64,000 bases of DNA from Thozetella sp. PMI_491 (taxonomy: Eukaryota; Ascomycota; Sordariomycetes; Chaetosphaeriales; Chaetosphaeriaceae): contig MU270018.1 in the NCBI GenBank assembly GCA_021432635.1, positions 1,428,796-1,492,795 of the forward strand, in the 5' to 3' direction. Shown here one piece after another: positions 11,081-49,609 of this stretch (position 1 is the stretch's first letter; each line of letters opens with the position of its first letter). The position numbers were made by a program, and so were the translations under genes. The notes under the pieces were generated by a model. It was not told the DNA's origin. It did no database searches and saw nothing but the letters and a program-made list of their open reading frames with translations.

Positions 11081-11132
<52 letters not shown>

Positions 11133-32526: not shown

Positions 32527-35500
32527 TTATGCGAATCCGAAGTAGTCGCTGCCCGCGGTTATGGCCTTGAGAATCTGCTTGCGAAGAAACTCGTAGCTCT
32601 CGTACTCGGGGAGATCGAGCTCTAGGCTTCGTCAGTGAACTGGTTCAGGAAATGGAGGAAAGGGGAGAGAGAGAGAAAGGGGGGGGGGGCTCACGGTTAA
32701 AGCAGGTGTGCGAGCTGGGGAGTCGGTCTTTGTTGCCATAATCGCGATGGATATTGAATCTGTTCACGCCGTTCATGCCCTCCAGCTCCTTGAAGCCGTT
32801 GAGGGGCACTTTGGAAGTGCCAGTCACGAACTGGAGCAGCTTGGCCCGCTCCTCCTTGTCGAAGGACCGAACGGCCCGCCAGAACCACTGAATCTGCTGC
32901 GAGGCTGCCGAGTAATTGTGGTACTCCGTGTTGCCCTTCCAATCGTCCACATCTATGTCCGGCAAACCCGAGATCAAGAGCTCGAGCTCTTGCTCGTTAA
33001 AAATGGCAATAAGCTCAGCGGGGATGATGTCGTGGAAGCCTAGGAAGTTGTCAGTTATCGCTACTCATGAGATGTTTAGATGCGGAGACCTAGACCTACC
33101 CTTCAGGAAGTTCTCCATCTGATCCTTGACCGAGGACAGCAACTTGTGCTCGACGATCAAGCGGACGTACTCGTGCTTGTTCTCCTCGGTAACGGCCACG
33201 TTGCGGCCGTTTTCGATTAGATCGACGACTTTGGTAACTCCGAACTCATCGTCTTCAACCGAGAAGGTCTCGGCTATGATATCTGTTATGTCGTTCTCGA
33301 GGATCCAGACCAGAGACTTGTAATAGTTCGGGTCGAACGACTCCATGTCCTTGACCGACACTGGTTTGCCGAGGATGCGCTTGTAGACTGCCCTACTGAA
33401 GTAGCAGTCCAGGAGGCGGCCCTCGTAGAGGGCCTTGCCGATGATGCGGCCGATGAACTTGAAAAACATGAGATGCTCGTCGTTGATGGCGCTGAGCTTG
33501 TTCGGGTGGAAAGTGGTGCGATCCGAGGACACCGGGATGAAGAGCGCGTAGTTCGGGTCGAACATCTGGCGGGATAGCACCTGGAACCACTCGCGGGTTA
33601 CTCCACCGGCGTCCACACCCTCTTCATTGTGGAAGCGTATGTTCAGCTTGCCGAACTTCATTTCGTCCCCAGACTTGAAGTAGAGAGACTTGAAAGAGTC
33701 GTGAAAAACGTGCTCACGACGCACCGAGAGTTGGAGGGGCGGGAATGAAGGCCGCACGGACTGGCCCGACTTGGAGTGCACGCTTCGGTTGAAGTAGTTG
33801 CGTTTATTATCAAACTCCAGGACCTTGGGATTCTTGACGAGGAGAGAGAAGGTGCCCGACATGAGCTTGGGGTTGCTGCGAACCAGCTCGTTGAGAATGC
33901 GCCGGTGCTCCTCGGTGAAGGTGAAGAAGAGGTCAGCCACCCGGTTCTCTGGCGGCGGGCTTGACAGGAGCATCTCCTTGCCGACAAAGCTCTGCGACAG
34001 CGACGCATCGTCTAGCGTGGTGTTCTTGCAGACAACCATGAGGGACTCGATCAGAGGTAGGAGGATGGTGGCAACATTGAGCATGTTGTCACGCTGCCGG
34101 ATCGCGCTCAGGCATGAACCTAGCTTCTCCCACATCTTGCCGAACGTGGGGTTCCAGTAAAGGGACCCCAGAAGGTCATCCTTCCTGGCCTCGTCATCGG
34201 CGTTGTCCGCTTTCTTGCCCTTGGTATCGAACAAGTGGTCGAGAGCCGTCAAGACGCGCAGAAGCTTGTTCTGTTCCGAAGCACCGGGAGAGAACTTGGC
34301 TAGCGCCACGCCCTGGATCTCGGTGCCGGACTCCGCTTTGAGGATATGAGGAAGGAGGTCGTCCAGGTCTGAGACGATATTCTCGCTCAGGGCTCTAGCT
34401 TGGCGGACGAGTTCGTCACCAAAGACCTTCTTAGCATCGGGGATGTTAGAGAGGTTCTTGATGGTTGAGATGGTGTTCTGGAAGGTCTTCGAGCTGCATT
34501 CACGGGCCACGAAGATGTTGATCACAAGCTTTAGGTTATGCTCTGGGATGACCGGTGGGGTCAGCTGCCGAATCTTCTTCTCCTCTTCGCTCTTTGAGTC
34601 CTTCGATGCTTCTCTAGCAGGCGCGGCAACTGCTGGCTCGGTCGTTGGCTCGGCGGGCGGCTGCTCCTCCGCCTCTGCATTAGCTGAGTCCCCGGCCTTC
34701 TTCTCGGTAGCTGCCGTCTCCTCCTCCGCCTTCTTTTTCCTGGCTTCTTCCTCGGCCTCCTTGCGACGGCGCTCGAGTTGCTGCAGAGGATACGTGACCT
34801 GGTTCAAGAGGTCGGCCAACAGTTGCATCACCGCAGAGCTTTCCATAACGAGAGTTCGATCAAGCAGGCTGAGCAGCGAGTTGATGGCATATTTCTGAGC
34901 CTTGGCATTGGCATTAGGAACGTCCTTGCCCTTGCCCTTGCGGCTGAGGCTGCGCTTGAGGGTCGATGCCACAGTTTCGTGCTCCGTCAAGAACAAGGGA
35001 GCTATGTGGGGATTCTTAGACAGATCCACGAGAAGATCCAAGCATTGCTGCACAACCAGAAGCGGTGAGATCTCCGAGTTGGTCTGGATCTGATTGTTAG
35101 TGCTAATGTTGGTAAAAGTTCTCTTGAGACTGCTTGGCGTCTTCTGGTCCTTTTCCCTCGGCTGCTTGGCTTTCAGAGAAAGCTGGCTGAAGCTGCGCTC
35201 AACAGCATCCATGTCTGTGCTGCCGTCTTGAAGGATCTGAAGCAGAGTGCTAATCACTTCCAGTCGGTTCTGACGGTTCTCACAGACATCTTTGAAGATC
35301 TCGAAGAGGTAATGACGGATCGAGCCTTGCTGAGACACGAACATGAGCCGGAGAAGGGTGGCAATACCGGCTTTGTCGAGCATCTGCACAATAGCACGGC
35401 GCTGGGGCTTCGTCTCGGTAGATCCGCTGGCCTCGGCCCGGGCCTGGCGTACGACCTCTCGCGCACGACTGAGGGTGCCCGGCGGCATCCGGCTCTGTTG

Positions 35501-38500
35501 ATGGCGAGCCATAGCGCGCACTTCAGCGGCCATGTCAGGTGGCAGCTGGTCCATGATATCCTCACCCTGATCGATCAAGACCTCGTGTCGGAGCTCGGGG
35601 GGGAAGGTCAGGAGAATGCTGGCGGCATCCATCTCGGTGGGCCCAAGGTCTTGCCCCGAAGCAGTTGCTTGCCGCCGCTGCTCTTCACGCTCGCGACGAC
35701 GGCGCTCCTGGCGCTCCTGCTGGATAATTTCCATTCTTAATTCATCGGGGAGTGCCTCCAAGAATTCCTGGAAGACCTCGGTGTTTTCGCCCCCGCCGGT
35801 CTCGCGCTGGACCGTGTCGGCCTGCTCGCGAGCTTCGGATCTGCGAGCGCTGACGGTCTGCGCAATGACCTCCGCACGGAACTCCTCAGGCAGAGCGGCG
35901 AGGTACTCTGGGTCAATGCCGAGCTCAGTAACGTCGACTTCGGAGCCTTGGATGGTGGTGATGATGCGTGGGACCTCCGCCCTCGACGAGCCGAGGCCGT
36001 CATCTGCGACACTGCTGGCCTCGATGCCCTCCATGGCCTGAGTCTCCGATTGATCGTCTTCGCTCGAGGGCGAATCAGCAGGCTGCGCCTGAGCAGCAGC
36101 AGCAGCAGCGGCGGCAGCAGCCGCCTCAGCTTCCGCAGCCTCGCGCTCGGCACGCTCGCGGTCCTCTGCTTCCTTCTTTTCTCTAGCAGCCTTCTCGGCA
36201 GCTTCCCTAGCCTCCCGCTCTTTTCGCTCGGCCTCCTCGCGCTTCTTGCGTTCCTCTTCTTCCTTACGTTGCTTAGCCTCTTTAACCTCCTTCTCGCGCT
36301 GCATAGCGGCCGGCGCAAGCTTGTAGAGGATCATGCTGTGTAGTCGGTTGGCCTTCTCGTGATGATTGAACCCAAATATCATCTTAGCCTCATCCTGCCA
36401 TCGCTCCACCGATGGCTCTGTTACAAATGCCACGGCCTGGCTCGGCTCTTGGTAAATGTCACGCCGAGCATCCGATCGGGACTCGCGGATGTAGTGGTGA
36501 TGGTGATGATGGTGATGGCCGACACCGAAAGGAATGTCAAGCTCACGCACCTCACCACGGCCTTGATGGGTGATCTGGAAGTGCAAGGACCCGCCGTGAC
36601 GGCTGCCTAGTGGGATTGTCTGGATCATGTCCTGGAGGAAAGCAAGGGGTCCATCTAGGGCAGCTAGAGGGCCGCCGAAGGGCATCCGCTGGATGTTCGA
36701 GACCGGAGCTCGAGACGAATCGCGGCCAGCACCGTGGCGACGGAGGAGAGGGTTGACGCCATCATCCGTGTTGCTTGCAGTGGGATTAGAGCGACCGTTG
36801 CTGCGGACGTAGTGTCTGAAGTCTAAACTTTGTTAGCAACTAGTTCAGTACCTATTTGGAAAGATCCTACCACCTAGTGCATCACGAGTCCCACCGATGG
36901 GGAAGGGAATTGGAGGGAAGGGGCTGCGAATGCCACCGGGTCGACGGCCGCCACCGCCGTGCTCAACGACAAGAGTATCCCAGCCAAGACTGGGTGGGAG
37001 ATTCGGCGGGACCACATCGTCATCTAGCATGGTTAGCGAACATGGAACTATCGATGATGGATCTGTACCATTGCAAAGAACTTACGTGGATAGTCTTGAT
37101 CGTAGAGGTATTCGTCTTCTTCGACGTCTTCCTCGTCATCTTCCTCATCTACACCCTCTTATTAGCACGATCAAACGGCGCTGGTGTCCGAGCTGAAACC
37201 TACCATCCTCTTCCCCGTCGTCCTCGATATACCTATCATCGATACCAAAGTCGCCAAAGCGCCCGAGCTGATCGTTGTCGCTTCCATGGATGCCGGCCTC
37301 GTCTAGATCTTGCTGCGCCGCCTCGTAGTCGATCTCCTCTTCATCTTCATCGTCTTCATCCGTCTCTTCCTCCCAGGAGTTGCCGTCGATCGGATGGTCG
37401 TCCTCGTCGATGATCTCAATTTGCTCCTCGACGTCTTCCATGTCTTCCGAACCGACCTCCTCGTCGTCGTCATCGTCGCTACCCTCTTCATCGTCCTCAT
37501 CCATTTCATCGTCGTCCTCGTCATCTTCGTCGTCTTCGTCGTCCATGATGACTTCCACGACTCCTGGGTTACCCGGGAGGCCTTCGATTGGGCCCATCTC
37601 GCCGAGCTCATCTTCATCCTCGTCACTCACGTTGTTCTCGCCGTCCTCGGACATCATCTCCTCGCCGTAATCGATTTCTTCCTCGTAACCCTCGTCATAC
37701 ATTTCCTCGTCGTCGTCTTCGTCATCTTCGGAGAACTCATCTTCGTTGCGACCCTCAAGTAGGCCGAGGGACGAATTGCGGTAGAGATCAGGGGTCTCCT
37801 CGCGGTCCGTGTCCAAATCTGAGAGAGACGAGGCCGAGGCGATGTCATCTTCGAGCTGATCGGCAGAGGTGGCCTCCGGGAGAATGCCATTCTGGCTGAG
37901 TTGTATGGCTGTCTTGGTCAGAATTCTAAGAATCCGGAGTATGTACTTGATACTCTTCTTGACCTGGGGGTACGAGACGTCGACGTCCGCGATGGAGGAC
38001 GTCAGAGCTGCTAGATAGCCCTTCTCATACATGAGCCGTTTGAGCTGGACATGCGAGCGAGTGAGGACAAATTCGGTCAGACCCCGAGAATTGAGGGAAT
38101 TTTCCTTATCCTTCTCGCCAGTGATCAGGCTCATGAGTTCGGCTAGCGATACCATCTTGCCGTAGCGGATATCGAATGCCTCGTTAGACGCTGCTGCCTC
38201 TTTGTAGGAGCGGATAATGGTGTCGAGAACAAACCGCCGGACGAACAAGAGGTTCGGCTCGTCATCGTAGTCAAAGCTGATGCGGCCACGCTCCTGAGGC
38301 TTCTCCGCGGTGCTGGCAACCAGCGCTGCCAAAACAGCCTGAGTCTGGCCAGATGTGGCAGCCTTCTTCTTCAAGACAATCGGATCCGTGATGCCAGTGA
38401 CATTCGGGCAGAGCAAGTCGTTTAGGAGGAAGTTCAATATGCTCGAGCGAGGCTTGACGGGAGTGTTGGTCTGCAAGGGGGCGTTGCGCTTAAAGTTGAT

Positions 38501-41500
38501 AAACTCAACCTTGGCACGATTGAAGCTCTGAAGCAGCTCGCCCAAGCAGTTTAGAAGGAAGCACCGATAGATAAAGATCGGATGCTCCTCCGGCTTGAAC
38601 GTCGACTTCTGAGGTTTCTTGTCCTTGTCCTTGTCCTTGTCTTTGTCGCCGGGTTCCCCTTCAGGGGCAGGCGAGGACTCGATCGATGCTGCCATAGTGC
38701 CCTCGGTTGTGGTCTTGGTTTCTTTGACCATCTGCGGAGCCGGCATCTTGTCGTCCACTTCGCGATAATTGACGACCTCGCAGAGGAGGAAGTGCACGAC
38801 GCCATCTGGGTTCTCGAGGACTGGAACCTTGACTTCTGGTACAGAACTCTTGGGGCCATCCTGCATGGCCTTTTCTTCAGGCTCAGTAGACACCTTGACG
38901 TTGCGGTTTTGGAGCTCCTCCGCCGCCTGGGAGCCGGGTTCGACTGAGCTGTCTGAAGCCTTTACTGGCTTTGGCGAGTCAGAGGGTGCATCCTTCAAGG
39001 CAATAGGCCATGCTCGGGGAGGCGGCCCATCGCTCGAGGCAGACTGCCACTTCGCAAGCTTGACCATGTCGTTCGTCATCTCGATAAACAACTTCGGAGA
39101 GCGAAGCGCCACCTGGGAAAGACTGCGTAGGTAGGCGTGGATGTCCATCTGCCTGGTCCTCTGCTGCGATACAAAGAACAGCCGGATTTCCTGGGCCATC
39201 ATCTGGCGGATGGTATCCTCGTCTTCGATGATGTGACGAAGAATGATCATGATGCTGTCCGATATCCGCGAGACCTTAAGGCGAATTGAGCCCATGCTGC
39301 ACAGCTGCTTGGCCATGACGAACAACGAGTTCAGGTTCTGCCTCTCCCCGATCTTCTTGGCTACCGCGTAATCCCGTGTAAGGATCACTAGTATGCGAAG
39401 GACCGACACTGCCAGGGACTCTTGCTGCCCAATGCGCGGGAGTAGACGTAGAATATCCCCAAGGAGCTCCGTCCTGTCCTCTGCTGAGAGGTTCGTCTCC
39501 TTCTCTTGAAGAATTGGCGGTTCAACGGCATCACTCTCAGTATTCGGTGCTTTCCAGTGGACCTCGACTGGTTGCTCATCCTCCGCAAGAAGAATCTCAA
39601 AAATGAGGAGAATATACGGGATCCATGGCGGCAACTCCTCGTTTGCACCGGCAGACGACAGCTGGAGGAAGGTCATGTATTCCGTGATGTTGTCCTTCAG
39701 TGTCTTCTTTGTGGATTGGTAAAAGGCCTTGTCCTGGAGAAGGAGAGATAAGAGGTGGGCATAGGCAGCGATGCTGCGGCCGTTCGACTTCTTGGCTTCG
39801 TCATCGACAGCGTAAGACATCAAGGCCTGAGCTAGGACTTCGCCAACCTCTGCCCTCTTCTCGTCGTTGTCTTGCCTTAGCACGACGGTTTGGATCAGCT
39901 CCGACACCTCGAAGACTGAATCCGGGTGAGCCCTGATGACCTCGAGGGAGCGATCGATTAGTTTTTCTTGCAATTTCTCGCGCTCCTCGTCCAGATCGTC
40001 TTTGGTCACCGGGTCGCTCGAAGGTTCGGGCTCAGGAGCAGATTGTGATGGATTGTTCCCGCTACCCTCGGCATCCTTGGTTTCGCTGGCCCCTGACAAC
40101 ACGATGGCTTCCCGGATAGCATTCAGGTTTTCCGAGTCGATGGCCATGGGTTCCGGGTTGAGATTATCGGTGGGTGACAATTGAGGAGGGCTAGGGGAGC
40201 GCCGCGCTGGCGTCGACGTTGTCGACGCAGCCTGCTTAGGGGTATCAGAGGGGGCGCGATAGGAATCTTCTTCCGGGATCCGGTTTCTTTGACCAGCTAG
40301 CTTCTTCTGGTGGGCCCTGCAATACTGTTCGGCGTCCTCGAACTTCCCATTTGCCCGATATGTTGCTTCCTGTACTAGGCCTTCGTCCTTGTACGTCCGG
40401 CTGAGCTTCTGGATCATGTCCGAGTGGTCGCCCCAGCTGAAGAGAACCTTGTCACGCTTCTTGAAGATGAGCGGTGCTGTGCCCCTATCGGCACGACGCA
40501 AAGCGGTCCCCTCGTTGTCGGCAGCCCCGATCGTCTTGAGAATATCGATCGCTTTGCTTAGAAGCTGGGTTGATGTTTTCTCGACTACCTCAGACTGCCA
40601 AAGCTCTCGAACCTCGCGCAAGATCGCACATCGTAGTTCCACTACAAGCTGGTTCGCAAAGGCATCCGAACGCTTGCTCTCCATACGGGGATTCAGGTGG
40701 ATTTGGCTCATAGATTCCATGATGTTCTTGCCGCTGGTAATCAAGACGTAGATGTCCAGGATTTTCTTGAGACCAATTGCCGCAATCTTGGGCTTAGACG
40801 ACTCATCGCCATCATTGGGGCCGCCGGTGATATCCTTGACGAAGTGCTGGAGAAGTTCGTTCAAGACGTTGATCCCGCCGTGCTCCTTGAAGGCAATGAG
40901 CACGGGAAGGATGATCTGGACGGACGACCGATCGCTATGGCGAGTTGGGTCGATTAACATCTCGTGCACTGTGTGCAGCATGATGATCCAATAGTGCAGG
41001 TTTTTGATCGACACGGGCTCCTGGAACGGGGCGGGCTTGAGCTGGTCCAAAATCGTTTCCGCAAGAGCCTCGGCGATCCGCAGGTGATAGTTCTTGACAT
41101 AGTGATCGCGTTCACGTCGTGGCAAAAGAGCCTTCCCTATGGTCTGAAAGAAGGGGAAGGTGGACGGCATGAGGGAGTGTAGCAGAAAGGAGAGGGTCTT
41201 GTAGTTCCTGTACTGCGGAGTGGACTGCTCCTCTGTGCTCGGTTTCTTGGCCCGGGCAGAAGATGCGTCGTCACCGGCGCTCCAGGCAATGCTGCCAGAC
41301 AGCACGTCAGGCAGCGAGTCTTCCTCGGCATCCTCTCCAGAGGCCCCGGCACCACTACTTGGCTCGTTCCCCTTGCCGCTGGTTTGGGCCAACTGCTTCC
41401 GCGACGACCAGCTCGGAGGCACGAGGGTCGCAATCGACATCTCTTCCGTGAGCACGTCGCGAAGAAGAGGTCCAAGGGACTTGATCAGGCGCACGTAGTA

Positions 41501-44500
41501 ATCATAGATGTTCACCTGAGGAAGCGTGGTGGTCGACGCCCTAGACGAGTAAGGGAAGCTCTGGTAAAGCATCTTGACAAGCGTCTGCAGGTTCAACAGC
41601 GCCTTGACCATTTGCGTGCCACTCGCTAGTTTAGGTAGAACTTCTTCTTTGAAGTTCCCGAACTCGTCGAGGAGTGGGAGGTCTGGGTCCAGGAACGGGG
41701 CGAAGTACGGGACTTGGCCGTCCTTGTTGCTAATGGGGCGCAGAGTATCGACGGCGCCTTGAATGCGGTTGAGCAGGGATGGCAGACCGATGATTTGCGA
41801 AGACTCGACGAGGAGGGCAACGAGGTGAGAAAGCATCCGCAGGGCCATCGACTCTCCAAAGTTGAAGGGGAGACTGGGAGATTCTGACAGATCCAGCAAC
41901 AACTCGATCCCGCCGTCTCGGATGAATGTAGACTTCAGCGTCGAGTTGGCAGTAAACGCGGAAAGGAAGTATGAGACGGCAGTGATGTACGGCGTGATCT
42001 CCTGGCTAGCCAGAGACGTCTGGCTCTCATCGGCCGGTTTGGATGACTTTGGCTCGGTGGCCGGCACGCTGGCATCCGTCATTTCGACATCCGAGTCGTC
42101 GGCGGACGCCTTTTCCTTGCCTTTTCGAGACTGTACTACGACCTGCGACTGCCTCAGCAGAGCATCGTCGGCAGTTAATTTGTCGCCGCCTGGGCCGGGG
42201 ACCCCGAGCTTCGCGCCCCAGCCGTCCGTAACTGACTTCGTCTTGGCCAAGTGGACAACCCGGGCGACCATGTCGAGCACGGCGTTCGAGATGACTGGCT
42301 TCAGGGTGGGATGGTGCCGGGCGAGTTCGTCGAAGCTGCTGCCGATGTTGCTCGCCAGGTCCGGTTCTGATTCCAGGCAGTGCACGTGAGCAGGGCTCTC
42401 GAATATCTCGAGGAAGCTGTCTAGTGCGCGAGATGAGACCACCATCTTTATACCCGTGTTATTCAGCGAGATGGAGTTGAGAACAGTCGGAATGATGTTG
42501 ATAACTTCCGAAGCAGCCAAGATCCCATTTGCGAGCGGTCTATCGCGTGGGGCCTCCAGCATCTCCAGCGTGGGTGGGTGCGGCCGCAGGTCGGCTTCCA
42601 AGACGACCGATTCATCGGAATCGTCATGGGAGTCATCGTCTTCACCCGAGTTGCGATCACCGTCCGAAGGCTGCTCAGCCGTCACCGCCTGCCCCGTCAG
42701 GGCATGCAGGAAGCTTTGTATGAGGGAAGACTCTTGAAGTGCAGGGAAACTTGTGGGGTCGTTGTTGATGAAGTCGGCCAGCAAGGTAGATGCGTTCGTC
42801 CAGACGATAGAGCCAAATGTTTCCTTGTTCTCGATAATGGTACGAAGGCTCGCAAGGAGCTCTGAGTTGTCCACCAGATTCCTCAAAAGTCGATCTGTGT
42901 TTCCCCCGTACGAGTAGGCGTTGCTCATGATGTGGTGAATAAACTTAAGGAGCCACTTCAGAGTCTGCTGCTGGTTGAACGGAATCTCGTAGTCCACGAC
43001 GTGGGAGCGAAGCTCCTGTTTTGTGCCGTGACCAGATGCAATGAGAGCCTGGGACTCAGAGACGGTGTGGACGATCAGGTTGGAGATGCTGTCCAGACCG
43101 GAGGCATTGATAAATGACTGGAATGCACCCTGGTCTCCGTAGATAAGACCATCTAGGAAAGCCAACACCATGCTGTAGTTGCGACTGGCAACCTTAGATC
43201 GGAGATTGAGAATTTCGACCAAGATCTCCATGAGCCCTGCCGAGATCATCTCGTTCCCGATGCGGGTAGCCATGGCCATGTGCAAAGTGAGAGTGAAGAG
43301 ACTGTTGCGCCACTTGTGCTCGTCCGTCGTCTTCTCTTCCATGTCGGCCTCGGAATCACTCTTCATACTCGCTACGGCCTTCCGAATGACGTAGAGGAGG
43401 ACCCCGTGATTCACGTTGACGTTTAGAGCTGAGAGGACATCCTGCGTCTTCGCCTGAAAGTTTGAGATGGCTTCAAGGAGAGACAACGCGATGGTCTGCA
43501 ACGGCAGAGGCACGTTGTTGAGGCCATCGGCGGAGGGATGAATGAGCTCGGCCAGCTGATAGACAAGCTGATATCGTCGCGGCTCGTCATTGTCCTGGCG
43601 CAAGGTCTTCTCGATAAAGGTAGCTTCGGGGTGGATGTAGGCGAGGTTAGTGATCGCAAGCAAGCGGACGGCGAGCGCCTGCTGTCGAGTCTCGGACGTG
43701 TCCGTGAGCGCTTTGCAGATCCGGAGGCGGGTTAGAAACTCGTACTTAGAGGCCGCGGGCATGTCTGCCGGGCATCGCTCGAGCAGACTGTAGATGGGCG
43801 TAGAGACAATCGTGGACTGGGGAATCTCAAGGGTCTTGGGCCCTGAGGCATTCGTCTCGTGCGTCACCGTTGGAGTGCGATGGGGAGGGGTCTCATCAGA
43901 GCCGCCCGAACCACCCTGACGAGCACTTCGAGGAGTTTGGTGGGACGACATCGTGGTGCTCCGTCGTAAGGGGGTGGGAGTAGCAGGGACATTAGAGTTG
44001 CTACGATCAGGGACACGAGGTTCTTGAGCCTGGGCGAGATTGGGCTCCGCGCTCGGCTTTGGGTAATAGATGACCTTGAGGTCGCCCCAGCCATTCCAGC
44101 GATCTTCGTCCGATGGAGAGGGAGCCGCGAGTGCTACCAGATCGTTGGCGTACATGGACGCCACATTCCGGTGGGAGGTGCTTTGCTGCTTCTCCTTACC
44201 CTTGCTGGTGGACCCCGGAGTCGTTGGGGGGAAATCGGCAAACTTGACGATCGGCGTCTTGACGAAGGGTTGCGACAGGCTGTGCACTCGCTCCAGCTCG
44301 ATGTTGTAGTGGTTTGCGAGCAAGGCGGTGCTGACCTGGCGGGAAGGCGTGGTCATCCTCTTAACCGAAGCCTGGTAGCGCTGGGCCAGCTCAAGACCAA
44401 CCTCGAGGGTTGCTCGGACGACATCGAGATATGTAGTATTGAGGAGGTCGTTGAGGTGGCTGCTGCTAGCATAGATGCTGCGGTTTCCGCAATGCTCCAG

Positions 44501-44967
44501 CAACATGCGGGTGAACTCGAGGATGGCTACGAGCAGCTGGCGATCACCGTCTTGATTGTAGCCGTGCTGGGTTAGGCGCTCTGCCGTCCATTTCTGCTCA
44601 TCGTGATACTCGACAGGGGCGCCTTCGTTCAGCAAGAGATCGCATCCGAAGTCTCGCATCTGCGGGCCGGCATCGAGGCTGTAGGTGGAGCAGAAGGCCC
44701 GAAGGATGCTGTCGAATCGGTTGAGGAGAGGGATCCAGTGGTACAAGTCGCCGCGCGGGAAAGGCCACTTCGAGGGGAACTTATCGAGGTGGTGAGGGAT
44801 GAGCGGTAAGGGTGCGGTCGATGCAGCCTGAACGTAGTCCCGAAGCCATGGAGACTGGGCAGCAGTTAGCATGTTTCCTTCCGGCCGGTTTCGCAAGTGG
44901 CGGCTCAGCAACGCCATACCAGAGTCTCCCTGTGCTTGGGCTGCATCGTCTTGATAATCTTTCCCAT
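32527..44967 (-). CDS. TOM1: Giant HECT-type E3 ubiquitin ligase, Tom1/HUWE1 family
   Basis: Ubiquitin ligase of 4025 residues in seven exons: 44967-44920, 44854-37204 (7.65 kb), 37148-37086, 37023-36871, 36822-33100, 33039-32695 and 32621-32527. The start [16 protein letters not shown] spliced to SPWLRDYVQ matches the family N-terminus. The N-terminal half is an armadillo-like solenoid (DUF908/DUF913 area, e.g. [15 protein letters not shown]). A very acidic segment covers about 2380-2590, and a run of eight His lies near 2745. A charged Glu/Arg/Ala stretch (about 2813-2886) precedes ubiquitin-binding repeats of the LPxElRxEV type ([27 protein letters not shown]). The C-terminal HECT domain ends with the catalytic cysteine in SSHTCFNQLDLP (about Cys3992) and FGFA. 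Yeast Tom1 acts on excess ribosomal proteins, histones and mRNA-export factors; substrates here are inferred. All HECT motifs are intact. Confidence 0.97.
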
Positions 44968-45836
44968 GATGAATCAGCGCGGCAGAGCCGCCGGAGAAAG
45001 AAAAAAAAACAACCCCCTCCACGACCAACACGCCACCGGAGGTGACGGTAGCCTCGTTCTCGGGGTCGCACCGGCGAAGCAACTTGGTCTGGGTGCAGTA
45101 AGGAGCGCCGCGACCGCGACGCGGAGGCCTATCTGGGAATGTGAGCTAGAGAGCGGCAGGCGGGCGAGGGCGGTGGTGGTTGATGGCCAAGACGGGTTGC
45201 CTGCGTCGGTGGGTTCGCTGGCGAGCTTTGGTTCACCGAAGCGGGCGGAAGCGGGCTCCGCAAATCAAATGGCGGGCAGGGCGCGCTTACCTTGCGTATT
45301 CGTTCGTAGATACCTAAGACGAGTGCAGGTCGTCGAGGGTATCGTGTTCGCGATTTGAGATGCGTCTTGTGCGCGAAAAAGTGGTGGTCGTGGGCAAGAT
45401 AGCTGGCAGGGGAAATGTGAGGATTCGAGAAAGAACTTGAAGTCGATTTGCGTAATAGGTGAGTGACGGCAAAGCTGTTGGTTGGAGCCACGGCATTTAC
45501 CGTCCAAGCTTCAGTGGGGGGAGGGACCGCAAGGTGGGGCTGGGCACCAGACTCTAGAGAGCGAGCGGCGAGCCTGGCTCGAGCCTGGCTGGCAAACTGG
45601 GTAGGTAAGCTTGGTAAGGTAAGTAGGTACCTTAACCAGGCAGCCAGTGCACCCACCACATCCAGAGACTGTGCCCAACAGGTCCCCGGCCGGCGTGAGC
45701 TTGAGCCGCAAGTCAAGGGAACAATGTCACTAGGACATTCCGAAGACGTGTATCCGCCGCTACGAGCAAAACCCGTGCATTGTGCACCTTTTCCTCGTCC
45801 CACGCATCTGCCTGCTGCAAGGCCAAGAGGCCTTGC

Positions 45837-45867
<31 letters not shown>

Positions 45868-46240
45868 TTCCTCTCTACTACTATACTGGCCCTCAATGAT
45901 ATCACGATAACTATCCCGATCATGTGCGTGGCTGTCTCCCTGCCTGCCTGTTGTAGTGGCATTTTTGTTTGTGACGATGGTCGTGTAAACGGCTTACCTA
46001 TTCAAGCATCTCCCGCCTATCTCTTGGGGCACCTCATTCGCTGTCTCGTGTCTCTGCTCCTGCATGTGGGCTAGCAAGCTAGGTGTCCATCCCGCCCGAG
46101 CATCAAGCGGGAACGCTTAGCAGCATGTGCAACCTGCCCGGAGTTCTTCATGTGTCGTCCTTGCGCAAGCGGCCGGCCACCCGACACCAGCACACCATCG
46201 GGTGCGCGGCGACCCTTTCAGACCCAGGAAGCCTTGCGTA
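44968..46240. other. Upstream region of the HECT ligase gene
   Basis: Promoter-side DNA of the large ligase gene. It has a TAGGTA-type repeat cluster (about 45599-45635) and a CT microsatellite (45833-45875, listed separately). A 277-codon open frame on the - strand (45129-45962) is unlikely to be a gene: it crosses these simple repeats and shows no motif. Confidence 0.5.
45833..45875 (+). repeat. CT dinucleotide microsatellite
   Basis: An almost pure CT repeat of about 40 bases, roughly 0.9 kb upstream of the start of the HECT ligase gene. Confidence 0.85.
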
Positions 46241-46375
46241 CGCGGTTCACAGCGCTCTGTGTCAATGCCAAGTTTGCCCCACAGATTTATTAAATATGCC
46301 ACAGGGTAGATTTAAAAACCACTACCCTCACTTCATCACATCAAGGTTACATTTAAATACATACAGCTTATTTTA

Positions 46376-46632
46376 AGGCCTGTTTTGCTAGTAATCCTGG
46401 TCTTACTTTGCCAGCGATCCAAGGCTTACTTTACCAGCGATCCAGAGCCTGCTTTGCCAGGGATCCGGGGCCTGTTTTGCCAGTGATCTAGGGCCTGCTT
46501 TGCCAGCGATCTGGGGTTTATTTTGCCAGCGATCTGGGGCTTATTTTGCCAGCGATCCATCGCCTAATTTACCAGTGATCTAGGGCCTGTTTTGCCAGCG
46601 ATCTAGAGCCTCTTTTGCTAGTGATCTAGGGC
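46376..46632 (+). repeat. Left array: about 11 units of a 23-25-bp GATC-containing repeat
   Basis: Tandem units with core TTTTGCCAGCGATCTGGGGC. Variation is mostly C/T within the core (CCAGTGATC, GCTAGTGATC, CCAGCGATCC). Spacing is about 24 bp, near two helical turns plus a few bases. Each unit but a few keeps GATC. Confidence 0.85.
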
Positions 46633-46687
46633 ATGTTTTATTAATAAGCTAGGTTTAGAAAATAAGCCTTAAATTACTAGTAAAATA

Positions 46688-46815
46688 GACCCTAGATTGC
46701 TGGTAAATTAGGCCCTGGATCGCTGGCAAAATAAGCCCCAGATCGCTGGCAAAATAAACCAGATCGCTGGCAAAATAGGCCCTAGATCGCTGGCAAAGCA
46801 GGCCTTGGATCGCTA
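46688..46815 (-). repeat. Right array: five to six units of the same repeat in reverse orientation
   Basis: Units read GATCGCTGGCAAAATAGGCC, the reverse complement of the left-array unit, separated from it by about 55 AT-rich bases. The two arrays can anneal to form a stem of well over 100 bp. Confidence 0.85.
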
Positions 46816-46924
46816 AGAAGATATTTTATGTAGGACTTTTAGAGGTTAAACGGGCTACTATACCCCTGCCGTATATGTAATTACTAAAAACTAGCATTGA
46901 CACAGTGAGCGCTGTGAACCGCCG

Positions 46925-47598
46925 TACTTGCGTCGCTACTAAGGGTTGCTTTTCTTGAGTCACAGGCAGGTCGTTGCCGCGCGGAGCCCTCCCTTCTCTT
47001 ACACCTGCTTGCTACCTACACTTCGAAGGCTCAAGGGTCAAGATGAGAGGAGTGTACAGTCAACAACTAATTGAGACCTCGGACGGATTTGTACGGAGCG
47101 ACTCGGTTCCCCATCTCAAGTCTTAGGAGCCGTAGACACACCAGTCAGTGGCTCTCAAATGATGCAACTCGGCGGCCATGAGTAGGCGCCTTCCCCACAC
47201 AGACAAGCCTTGACTTGCGCCCGGTCCAACCCCAGAAAGCTCGAAAACGCTATTATTCGGCTCCGCAGAAATTTCGTTCTTTGAACCCAGCATGTGCCCA
47301 GCGCGCCATTACTTGCTATCAGCGCCTTTCTGGCAGAGCTACGCGCCTTCCTCTTCACTCTGCCCTGATTGACGCCGTGAGTAAGACATTATAAGACATC
47401 GCTAGCCAAGCCAGTCGGGTACGAAGTACACTTGACGCAACCACGACCTGTGTGACTGTATCCAGGCCCGAAACTACCCCTCCAATTCGTCGGAAGGACC
47501 CCGCGCTAGGCCGGCCCGTGACAGGCTTTGGAATTTTCACGCCCTCTTTTTTCCCTCCTTCTCCTTCTTCGGAGCTCAGCAGTTGAAGCTCGCCCCCG
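46925..47598. other. Intergenic region upstream of the PRPP synthetase gene
   Basis: Contains CT-rich sequence close to the start codon (about 47540-47580), probably leader. Open frames on the - strand here (47155-47358 and 47355-47780) show no motif and the second overlaps the gene antisense. Confidence 0.5.
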
Positions 47599-49133
47599 AT
47601 GGCAGATATGGCGAACGAGATTAAGCTTCTCACGTAGGTTCGAGCCGGAATAGTAGGGAAGTGTCGGGCCAGTCTGCTAATTCCGAGAACAGGGGCAACA
47701 GCCACCCGATCCTCAGCCGGCTGGTCGCCGACCGGTACGATCACGCTCCGTATCCTCGCAGCTGCTCCCTTCCCACGCACCGGTCTGACCTAGCTATCCT
47801 TGTTATAGGCTCGGTATTGAGATCGCCAAGACAATGAGTCTCAACTATTCGAACCAAGAGACCTCGGTGACAATTGGCGAAAGCGTCCGCGACGAGGATG
47901 GTACGCTACCTTCAGTTACGCTGCGATGACAGCCTGAGAAGCCTCGTCTAACACAAATTTAGTCTTTATCCTCCAGTCGACTCTCCCAGGAGATATTAAT
48001 GATGGCCTCATGGAGCTGTATGTATGCCAGGGGCATGGGGCAAGCTGAATGCTAAACTAACGCTCCTAGCCTAATCATGATCCATGCCTGCCGGACGGCC
48101 TCAGCTAGAAGGATAACCGCAGTCATCCCGAACTTCCCATACGCCCGGCAAGACAAGAAGGGTGAGCCTCGACGAGACTGGCGCACACTGAACCGAGTGG
48201 CTAACGGAGACGACACGCAGATAAGAGCAGAGCCCCCATTTCTGCGAAGCTAATCGCGAACATGCTTGTCACCGCCGGCTGCAACCATGTGGTAGGTTTC
48301 CCAGTTGGACCTGGTTTATTGTCCACAATGGCTTACAAAGTATGGCAGATCACCATGGATCTTCACGCCTCTCAGATTCAGGGCTTCTTCAATGTGCCCG
48401 TCGATAACCTCTATGCCGAGCCGAGCGTGCTGCGGTGGATCGAGGAGAATATGAATACTCAGGACTGCGTCATCGTCAGTCCCGATGCCGGTGGTGTGAG
48501 TGACCTCAGCTGTTCAGTCTAAGCCTAGAACCCGCAATGTTAACAACCTTTCGCTAGGCGAAACGCGCCACCAGCCTAGCTGACCGCCTCCAAACTGCCT
48601 TCGCACTCATCCACAAGGAGCGGCCGCGGCCCAATGTCGTGGGGCGAATGGTGCTCGTCGGAGATGTCGAGGACAAGATCGCCATCCTCGTGGACGACAT
48701 GGCTGACACATGTATGAAAATACCCCCGCGACCCAGCAGACATTGAATCCTGGGCGACAGATCTAATCATATCGTCCCAGGTGGCACCCTTGCCAAGGCC
48801 GCGGCAACGCTTAAGGAGCACAAGGCTCGCGAGGTCATCGCCATCGTCACCCACGGCATCCTATCTGGCAATGCCATTGAGACAATTAATAAATCATGCC
48901 TCAGCAAGGTCATCGTCACAAACACGGTCCCCCTGAGCGACAAGCTAGAGCGGTGCCCGAAGCTTCGGGTGATCGATGTTAGTGGGACCATCGCCGAGGC
49001 GATTCGCAGAACGTAGGGCCGGCCTCCCCTCCTCCCCTTCCCCCTTGGGATTCATCGAGCACGCGATGCTAACTAAATTCTCAGTCACAACGGCGAGAGT
49101 GTCAGCTACCTCTTCACCCACGTGCCAGTATAA
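47599..49133 (+). CDS. prs: Ribose-phosphate pyrophosphokinase (PRPP synthetase)
   Basis: Cytosolic enzyme that transfers diphosphate from ATP to ribose 5-phosphate, giving PRPP for nucleotide, histidine and tryptophan synthesis. It has 322 residues in ten exons: 47599-47633, 47693-47734, 47809-47900, 47963-48017, 48070-48161, 48221-48291, 48349-48495, 48558-48711, 48781-49012 and 49085-49133; all phases agree and CTAAC-like branch sites are common. Family marks are [64 protein letters not shown] and the PRPP-binding loop [11 protein letters not shown], plus the C-terminal [13 protein letters not shown]. It is the compact form without the long inserts of yeast Prs1/Prs5, so nearest to the Prs2/3/4 type. 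In fungi such subunits work as hetero-oligomers. The high exon number is unusual for so short a fungal gene. Confidence 0.95.
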
Positions 49134-49609
49134 CGTTGCGGCGGTATGTCGAAGGTGAGGGAGAAGCTTGAACATGCATGGAATTATCACTGACTTGATT
49201 TGCGAGATGCTTTACTAGGCGCAAAGTGGCGGATCAATAGTGCCTTCTCAGAAGTCGGCGGAACAAGATTCCAACGCCGGCCGTATACAGATCGAAAGGA
49301 GTTCAGTCGGCCATAGTACCTCTGTTTGACATATTAGCTACACCGGCAGCAAGCCCTCGGGGAAGGGATGCTGCCGACATAGTTTGGGATACACTTCTGC
49401 ACCGCTTGTAAGGCACTACACAAATAGAGAGATCACCACGCGAGGACAGAACCAGCAATGGTGTTCAATGCAATTTTTCATTGGCCTCCAAAGAGGTTTT
49501 CAATGCCATGTACACACCCTCCAAGATGAGTTGGCAACGAACCCGCGCCGTGATGACCTTTTCCGAAAGCAAAGTAAAACCCAGTCCATGACCCCGAAAC
49601 ACCTCATGT
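49134..49609. other. Intergenic region between convergent genes
   Basis: Shared 3' flank of the PRPP synthetase gene (+) and RPS6 (-). Nothing else is seen. Confidence 0.5.

Follow-up and report, generated by a model that had tools for sequence, protein, structure and literature searches.

The window, a 64,000-nucleotide stretch of genomic DNA from Thozetella sp. PMI_491 (C4:1428796-1492795; the genome searched comprises 72.3 Mb in 157 contigs), carries on its minus strand two long neighbouring ORFs at 33065-45145, one with DUF908/DUF913 and the other with UBM/HECT domains, which together probably form one gene for a HUWE1/TOM1-type ubiquitin ligase. A diphthamide synthesis protein is also encoded in the window, whose proteins are of eukaryotic type; no tRNA genes were found in it, and at 11081-11130 there is an uninterrupted run of 50 G, either a real homopolymer or an assembly artefact. 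Beyond the 5' end of the ORF of 2666 aa (37145-45145), at a distance of about 1.1 kb, lies a non-coding element of 688 bp, hereafter element 1, which occupies positions 46239-46926; no Pfam-matching coding ORF was seen in the DNA around it. Its features and immediate flanks are listed below in window coordinates, where element 2 denotes a related element on contig C9.

46233-46238, plus strand: left target site duplication CTTGCG, repeated exactly at 46927-46932 and directly adjoining the TA terminus
46239-46275, plus strand: left terminal inverted repeat (TIR), beginning TACGCGG, with related ends at C9:264781 and C9:731992
46276-46376, plus strand: left subterminal region, AT-rich, resembling the left end of element 2 (C9:264781)
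46377-46652, plus strand: left array of 12 units with consensus GGCCTGTTTTGCCAGCGATCTAG, the last unit degenerate (Tandem Repeats Finder and unit alignment)
46469-46620, plus strand: putative source arm of an inverted duplication, slightly longer than units L5-L10 and sharing 130 of 149 aligned bases with the right arm
46621-46655, no strand: AT-rich spacer between the aligned arms, a loop of 35 bp (arm alignment)
46656-46804, minus strand: inverted arm, with six reversed 23-bp units at 46669-46804, the innermost degenerate
46805-46887, plus strand: right subterminal region, whose end together with the TIR resembles the right end of element 2
46888-46926, minus strand: right TIR, TACGGCGGTTCACAGCGCTCACTGTGTCAATGC when read inward
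46927-46932, plus strand: right target site duplication CTTGCG, an exact copy of the left one

The two TIRs, of 37 and 39 bp, differ from each other by short gaps and a few innermost bases, the left one having one G fewer than TACGGCGG and two bases fewer further inward. The original prediction, made from the letters of the window, had placed here a TIR-bounded, non-coding mobile element of foldback type, and in this it is borne out by the TIRs, by the opposed arrays between them and by the second element with related ends. The lack of coding capacity was likewise confirmed, no stretch free of stops being longer than 62 codons. Several details needed adjustment. The ends, put at 46241 and 46924, lie at 46239 and 46926; the TIRs, described as about 30 bp long beside TA dinucleotides, are longer, and the TAs are their own terminal bases, with a duplication of 6 bp outside them.

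The interior consists of two opposed arrays of a GATC-bearing repeat. Tandem Repeats Finder gave a period of 23 in both, and the unit spacing is 23 throughout except that the right array has a single step of 21 bp; this corrects the unit length from the 24 bp first proposed. The opposed arrangement itself stands, at 12 and 6 units (about 11 had been counted, followed by five to six in reverse), and a loop of 35 bp, not the 55 bp given for the spacer, separates the aligned arms. The arrays, able to pair with each other as in foldback elements, start 138 bp inside element 1 and do not reach its ends. Their innermost units, L12 and R6, each match the consensus at 15 of 23 bases, and unit R3 is identical to L7 at all 23. 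Read on the minus strand, units R1-R6 match L5-L10 in order at 122 of 138 bases (permutation p 0.00085, that is 0.085% of 20,000). GATC occurs 15 times in the 688 bp. In 2000 base shuffles its mean was 2.6 and its highest count 11, and the excess is due to the repetition of the unit.

Searching the genome at the DNA level with element 1 returned at least four matches: element 1 itself, two inverted self-matches of the arrays, and 56 bp at C9:265170-265225, which are the right end of element 2 (C9:264781-265227, 447 bp). Another genomic copy of the termini, on which the original prediction had made its case depend, therefore exists as one clear second element. At their left ends, over the first 125 bp, the two elements have 96 of 122 aligned bases in common (71% by BLAST with gaps included); at their right ends, over the last 64 bp, the figure is 51 of 64 (81% by BLAST, likewise with gaps). 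The TIRs of element 2 match each other at 36 of 43 aligned bases within the first 44. When up to three mismatches were allowed, a 28-base TIR pattern matched five times in the genome and its reversed control not at all. These five comprise one end of element 1, both ends of element 2 and two ends at C9:731992-741884; a sixth related end, the left one of element 1, was missed by the pattern because it is gapped. A relaxed pattern of the TIR start gave 10 matches in the genome, three of them in known elements, versus 13 for its control. A 26-base TIR pattern had no exact match in viral or prokaryotic contig collections, a weak test as neither is fungal, and three records from a plasmid collection, at E 0.6, were taken as chance.

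A 21-base unit pattern (up to three mismatches) matched 25 times in the genome, with 14 matches in element 1 and the 11 others single, and 6 times in the control. No second array of the 23-bp unit was seen in the genome with this pattern; several copies with varying unit number were looked for as a mark of foldback elements, and the foldback form came to one copy in this genome. Searches with the left flank of each element yielded no paralogous empty sites, the flank of element 2 being unique and that of element 1 unique apart from four matches to its CT microsatellite.

Directly outside the TACGG..CCGTA boundary the six bases read CTTGCG on both sides of element 1 and AGGCAT on both sides of element 2, so that an exact 6-bp duplication lies flush with the TA termini in both of the two clear elements. 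The chance of a 6-base match is 0.0003 at one fixed boundary (200,000 draws from the window) and 0.039 at any of 169 nearby boundaries (3,000 draws), and it is the latter figure that applies to element 1, because its duplication was first found by eye over several boundaries. The duplication of element 2 repeats the boundary and the length of that of element 1. For element 1 there is the alternative of a 7-base duplication if the terminal T is counted as outside.

These termini resemble those of the IS3EU superfamily. Complete IS3EU families are reported always to have TA..TA termini and usually target site duplications of 6 bp (PMC10045372), and families from rust fungi to combine 6-bp duplications with TIRs of more than 30 bp ending TAYGG..CCRTA (PMC12730594). 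Styx of Zymoseptoria, whose transposase is of IS3EU affinity, is described with a 36-bp TIR and 6-bp duplications in a length of 7927 bp (PMC10853768). Element 1 is like the rust families and Styx in its TA..TA termini, found at all four ends of elements 1 and 2, in its TIRs of more than 30 bp and in its 6-bp duplications, which element 2 has as well. Three of the four ends read TACGG, in agreement with TAYGG..CCRTA, while element 1 has TACGC on its left, where one G of TAYGG is missing. The difference from Styx is in size (688 versus 7927 bp) and in content, for the transposase is absent and the interior is an inverted minisatellite. Among the sordariomycetes is Colletotrichum lupini. In that fungus IS3EU has been reported as the most abundant DNA transposon (PMC11645255). 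Counting against the assignment, besides the missing G of the left TIR, 6-bp duplications are shared by GingerRoot, which belongs to the same lineage as IS3EU and also has TA..TA termini, by Polinton (PMC10045372) and by hAT6 (PMC12730594). Taken together, the termini and the arrays suggest that element 1 is probably a single relic of a non-autonomous DNA transposon of IS3EU type, with an inverted 23-bp minisatellite as its interior. Its membership in IS3EU is proposed from the termini, because no matching transposase was found.

An IS3EU transposase with these ends was looked for in the genome by TIR patterns and by profile searches, and none was found. The PF24764 profile, tried as a candidate model, had no matches here and is uninformative, because none of 14 control genomes matched it either. 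The IS481 model gave eight weak matches in the genome, none above the cut-off, and it matched 10 of the 14 control genomes, also below the cut-off. Three of the eight were inspected: one resembles a Tc1-type transposase, another a broken Gypsy-type integrase, and the third contains no ORF of 80 aa. By residue reading, two overlapping ORFs of 175 and 212 aa at C14:30226-31379 jointly resemble a Tc1/mariner-type transposase, and the relic on C149 that resembles a Gypsy-type integrase has 13 stops.

The two remaining ends recovered by the TIR pattern, at C9:731992-741884, are inverted with respect to each other, lie at a distance of 9.9 kb, and over about 150 bp show an inverted similarity of 74%. 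They lack a 6-bp duplication, having an imperfect one of 8/10, and the right end reads TG, not TA; for these reasons we set this pair apart from elements 1 and 2 and would place it outside the IS3EU signature that those two display. The pair does have a bearing on another reading, under which element 1 is a Mutator-type foldback element (MULE) of the Tetris or Tm1 kind. Long inverted similarity and an imperfect 8/10 duplication would suit such an element, as would the foldback form, most foldback elements having been placed in Mutator according to PMC4079207. However, the duplications of elements 1 and 2 are 6 bp long, as opposed to the 8-10 bp reported for Tetris and the 9 bp reported for Tm1, the TIRs of element 1 measure merely 37 and 39 bp, and the arrays stop short of the ends. 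We regard Mutator ancestry as unlikely.

Could the hairpin instead have been kept for a function, as double-stranded RNA or through protein binding at the regular GATC-bearing units, both of which the original prediction had raised? The predicted RNA fold is indeed very stable, beyond what chance would give, at -367.8 kcal/mol for element 1 against a mean of -194.9 in 20 dinucleotide shuffles (z -25), and with z -27 for the arm region alone (100 shuffles); GATC is also spaced regularly every 23 bp. The 19 substitutions between the arms (14 transitions and 5 transversions) argue otherwise. The transitions split 8 versus 6 according to whether a G-U pair is kept in plus- or in minus-strand RNA, and with no strand bias towards G-U pairs we rejected selection for an RNA hairpin. 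Relative to the consensus, C-to-T changes over 18 units are commonest at CpA (19/54) and CpG (10/36), with 10/72 at CpT and 6/72 at CpC, as expected of repeat-induced point mutation (RIP) or deamination; the pattern leans towards one of these processes, in counts that are not independent because the units share ancestry. The composite RIP index is not raised in the arrays (-1.4 and -1.7, compared with -0.5 for the window). The foldback form is single-copy, and no Rfam family matched in 45000-49500. As regards protein binding, the repeat unit of Galileo is said, going by a paper title, to be a transposase-binding site. We dismissed the idea that the unit of element 1 is a TIR-derived site of this sort, since its local score of 6 against the TIR was matched by 996 of 2000 shuffled units. 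Neither idea finds support in these results, nothing points to a function of element 1, and a hairpin retained for one is very improbable.

Still less probable is a Tc1/mariner-type MITE, in which the TA would be the target duplication and the element would begin at CGG. Both ends do carry TA, and the genome contains the Tc1-type-like transposase at C14:30331. But a TA duplication leaves unexplained the exact 6 bases duplicated outside the TA in both clear elements; the TA is terminal to the element, and we rejected membership in Tc1/mariner, which contradicts the link drawn earlier from the TA flanks. Last, the arrays could be a minisatellite of ordinary intergenic DNA that was duplicated in reverse by chance, flanked by coincidental TIRs. 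This would agree with the lack of any further array of the unit in the genome, yet it is contradicted by the second element, the TIRs being common to C9:264781-265227 with the same boundary and the same duplication length, and we consider this reading the most improbable of all.

If element 1 is of IS3EU type, its history probably ran as follows. It would have entered the site by cut-and-paste transposition, the target being cut with a stagger of 6 bp, and would have been mobilised in trans by a presumptive IS3EU transposase that recognised its ends. The original interior would have been lost and the ends alone retained, as suggested by element 2, which shares only its ends with element 1; faulty gap repair or template switching may have brought about the replacement. 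A 23-bp minisatellite would then have filled the middle and expanded in tandem before any inversion, after which a single inverted duplication of about six units, for which template switching in the course of gap repair could account, would have folded the array back on itself. That tandem growth came first and the inverted block duplication after it is indicated by the colinearity of R1-R6 with L5-L10, and one copy is enough to reveal this order of events. At present element 1 looks inert and is most likely immobile, and since it looks inert its practical weight is small.

Foldback elements and IS3EU elements are each known already, separately. In its opposed arrays of short tandem units around a middle, element 1 is like Tetris, Tm1, Galileo and FB of Drosophila, among which non-autonomous forms are common. 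The target duplication of Galileo is 7 bp. As far as the accounts of Tetris, Tm1 and Galileo go, these elements have been placed in Mutator or P and make longer duplications than element 1, and their repeats form the TIRs, whereas those of element 1 begin well inside it, and the foldback form has one copy here. The original prediction recognised no named family; with regard to the interior this is a known foldback architecture of opposed short tandem units, and the termini fit IS3EU. Tetris too is described without a transposase and was placed by the length of its duplications, and the foldback form has been suggested to arise independently in different lineages (PMC4079207). If the assignment is true, element 1, with its IS3EU termini, would add an independent case of this kind.

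Among the open-licence papers listed, which for the broadest searches were a small part of the matches, no title or beginning of an abstract describes an IS3EU foldback element or a fungal foldback element. In Mycosphaerella graminicola, 2 of 13 reported MITE families have duplications of 5-6 bp, and some families share TIR and duplication with interiors that differ (PMC4522978); in contrast to element 1, the available text of that paper mentions neither an inverted minisatellite interior nor an IS3EU assignment. The minisatellite-carrying MITE of Porphyromonas gingivalis (PMC4596501) is like element 1 in its short TIRs and internal tandem repeat, but it is bacterial, and no inverted second array is mentioned in the part of its description that is available. 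Tandem repeats with similarity to IS3EU are reported from oyster (PMC8268682) and from Tribolium (PMC5844308), and PMC9970103 is among the papers that name IS3EU.

The interior of element 2 (approximately positions 170-402 of a 457-bp query) is a fragment of a dispersed repeat with at least 40 further matches in the genome. Several of its copies are paired 7.07 kb apart (on C40, C47, C25 and C127), and in the two pairs compared, those of C40 and C47, 305-306 bp are common at about 90%, with the C40 copy bounded by TGTCA..TGACA. Of 11 loci compared, 7 gave plus-strand matches, and the 4 misses may reflect orientation. From the pairing of the copies and the TGTCA..TGACA bounds on C40, the dispersed repeat seems to be a portion of an LTR. 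A minus-strand ABC-transporter gene (ABC_tran and ABC2_membrane matches) is enclosed by the third pair of ends, and no transposase was found in the 20 of the 65 ORFs of at least 60 aa between these ends that were scanned with Pfam; C9:731992-741884 is a possible gene-carrying element, although its duplication and its terminus speak against this. We would suggest, tentatively and as a doubtful extension, that IS3EU-type ends in this genome may repeatedly exchange interiors, having come to enclose an inverted minisatellite, a fragment of an LTR repeat and a stretch with an ABC transporter. If true, this would amount to a Pack-type system in a fungus, belonging to the IS3EU superfamily, and the foldback form would be one of its outcomes. 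One 391-aa ORF of the enclosed ABC transporter has its other genome matches at 32-41% identity.
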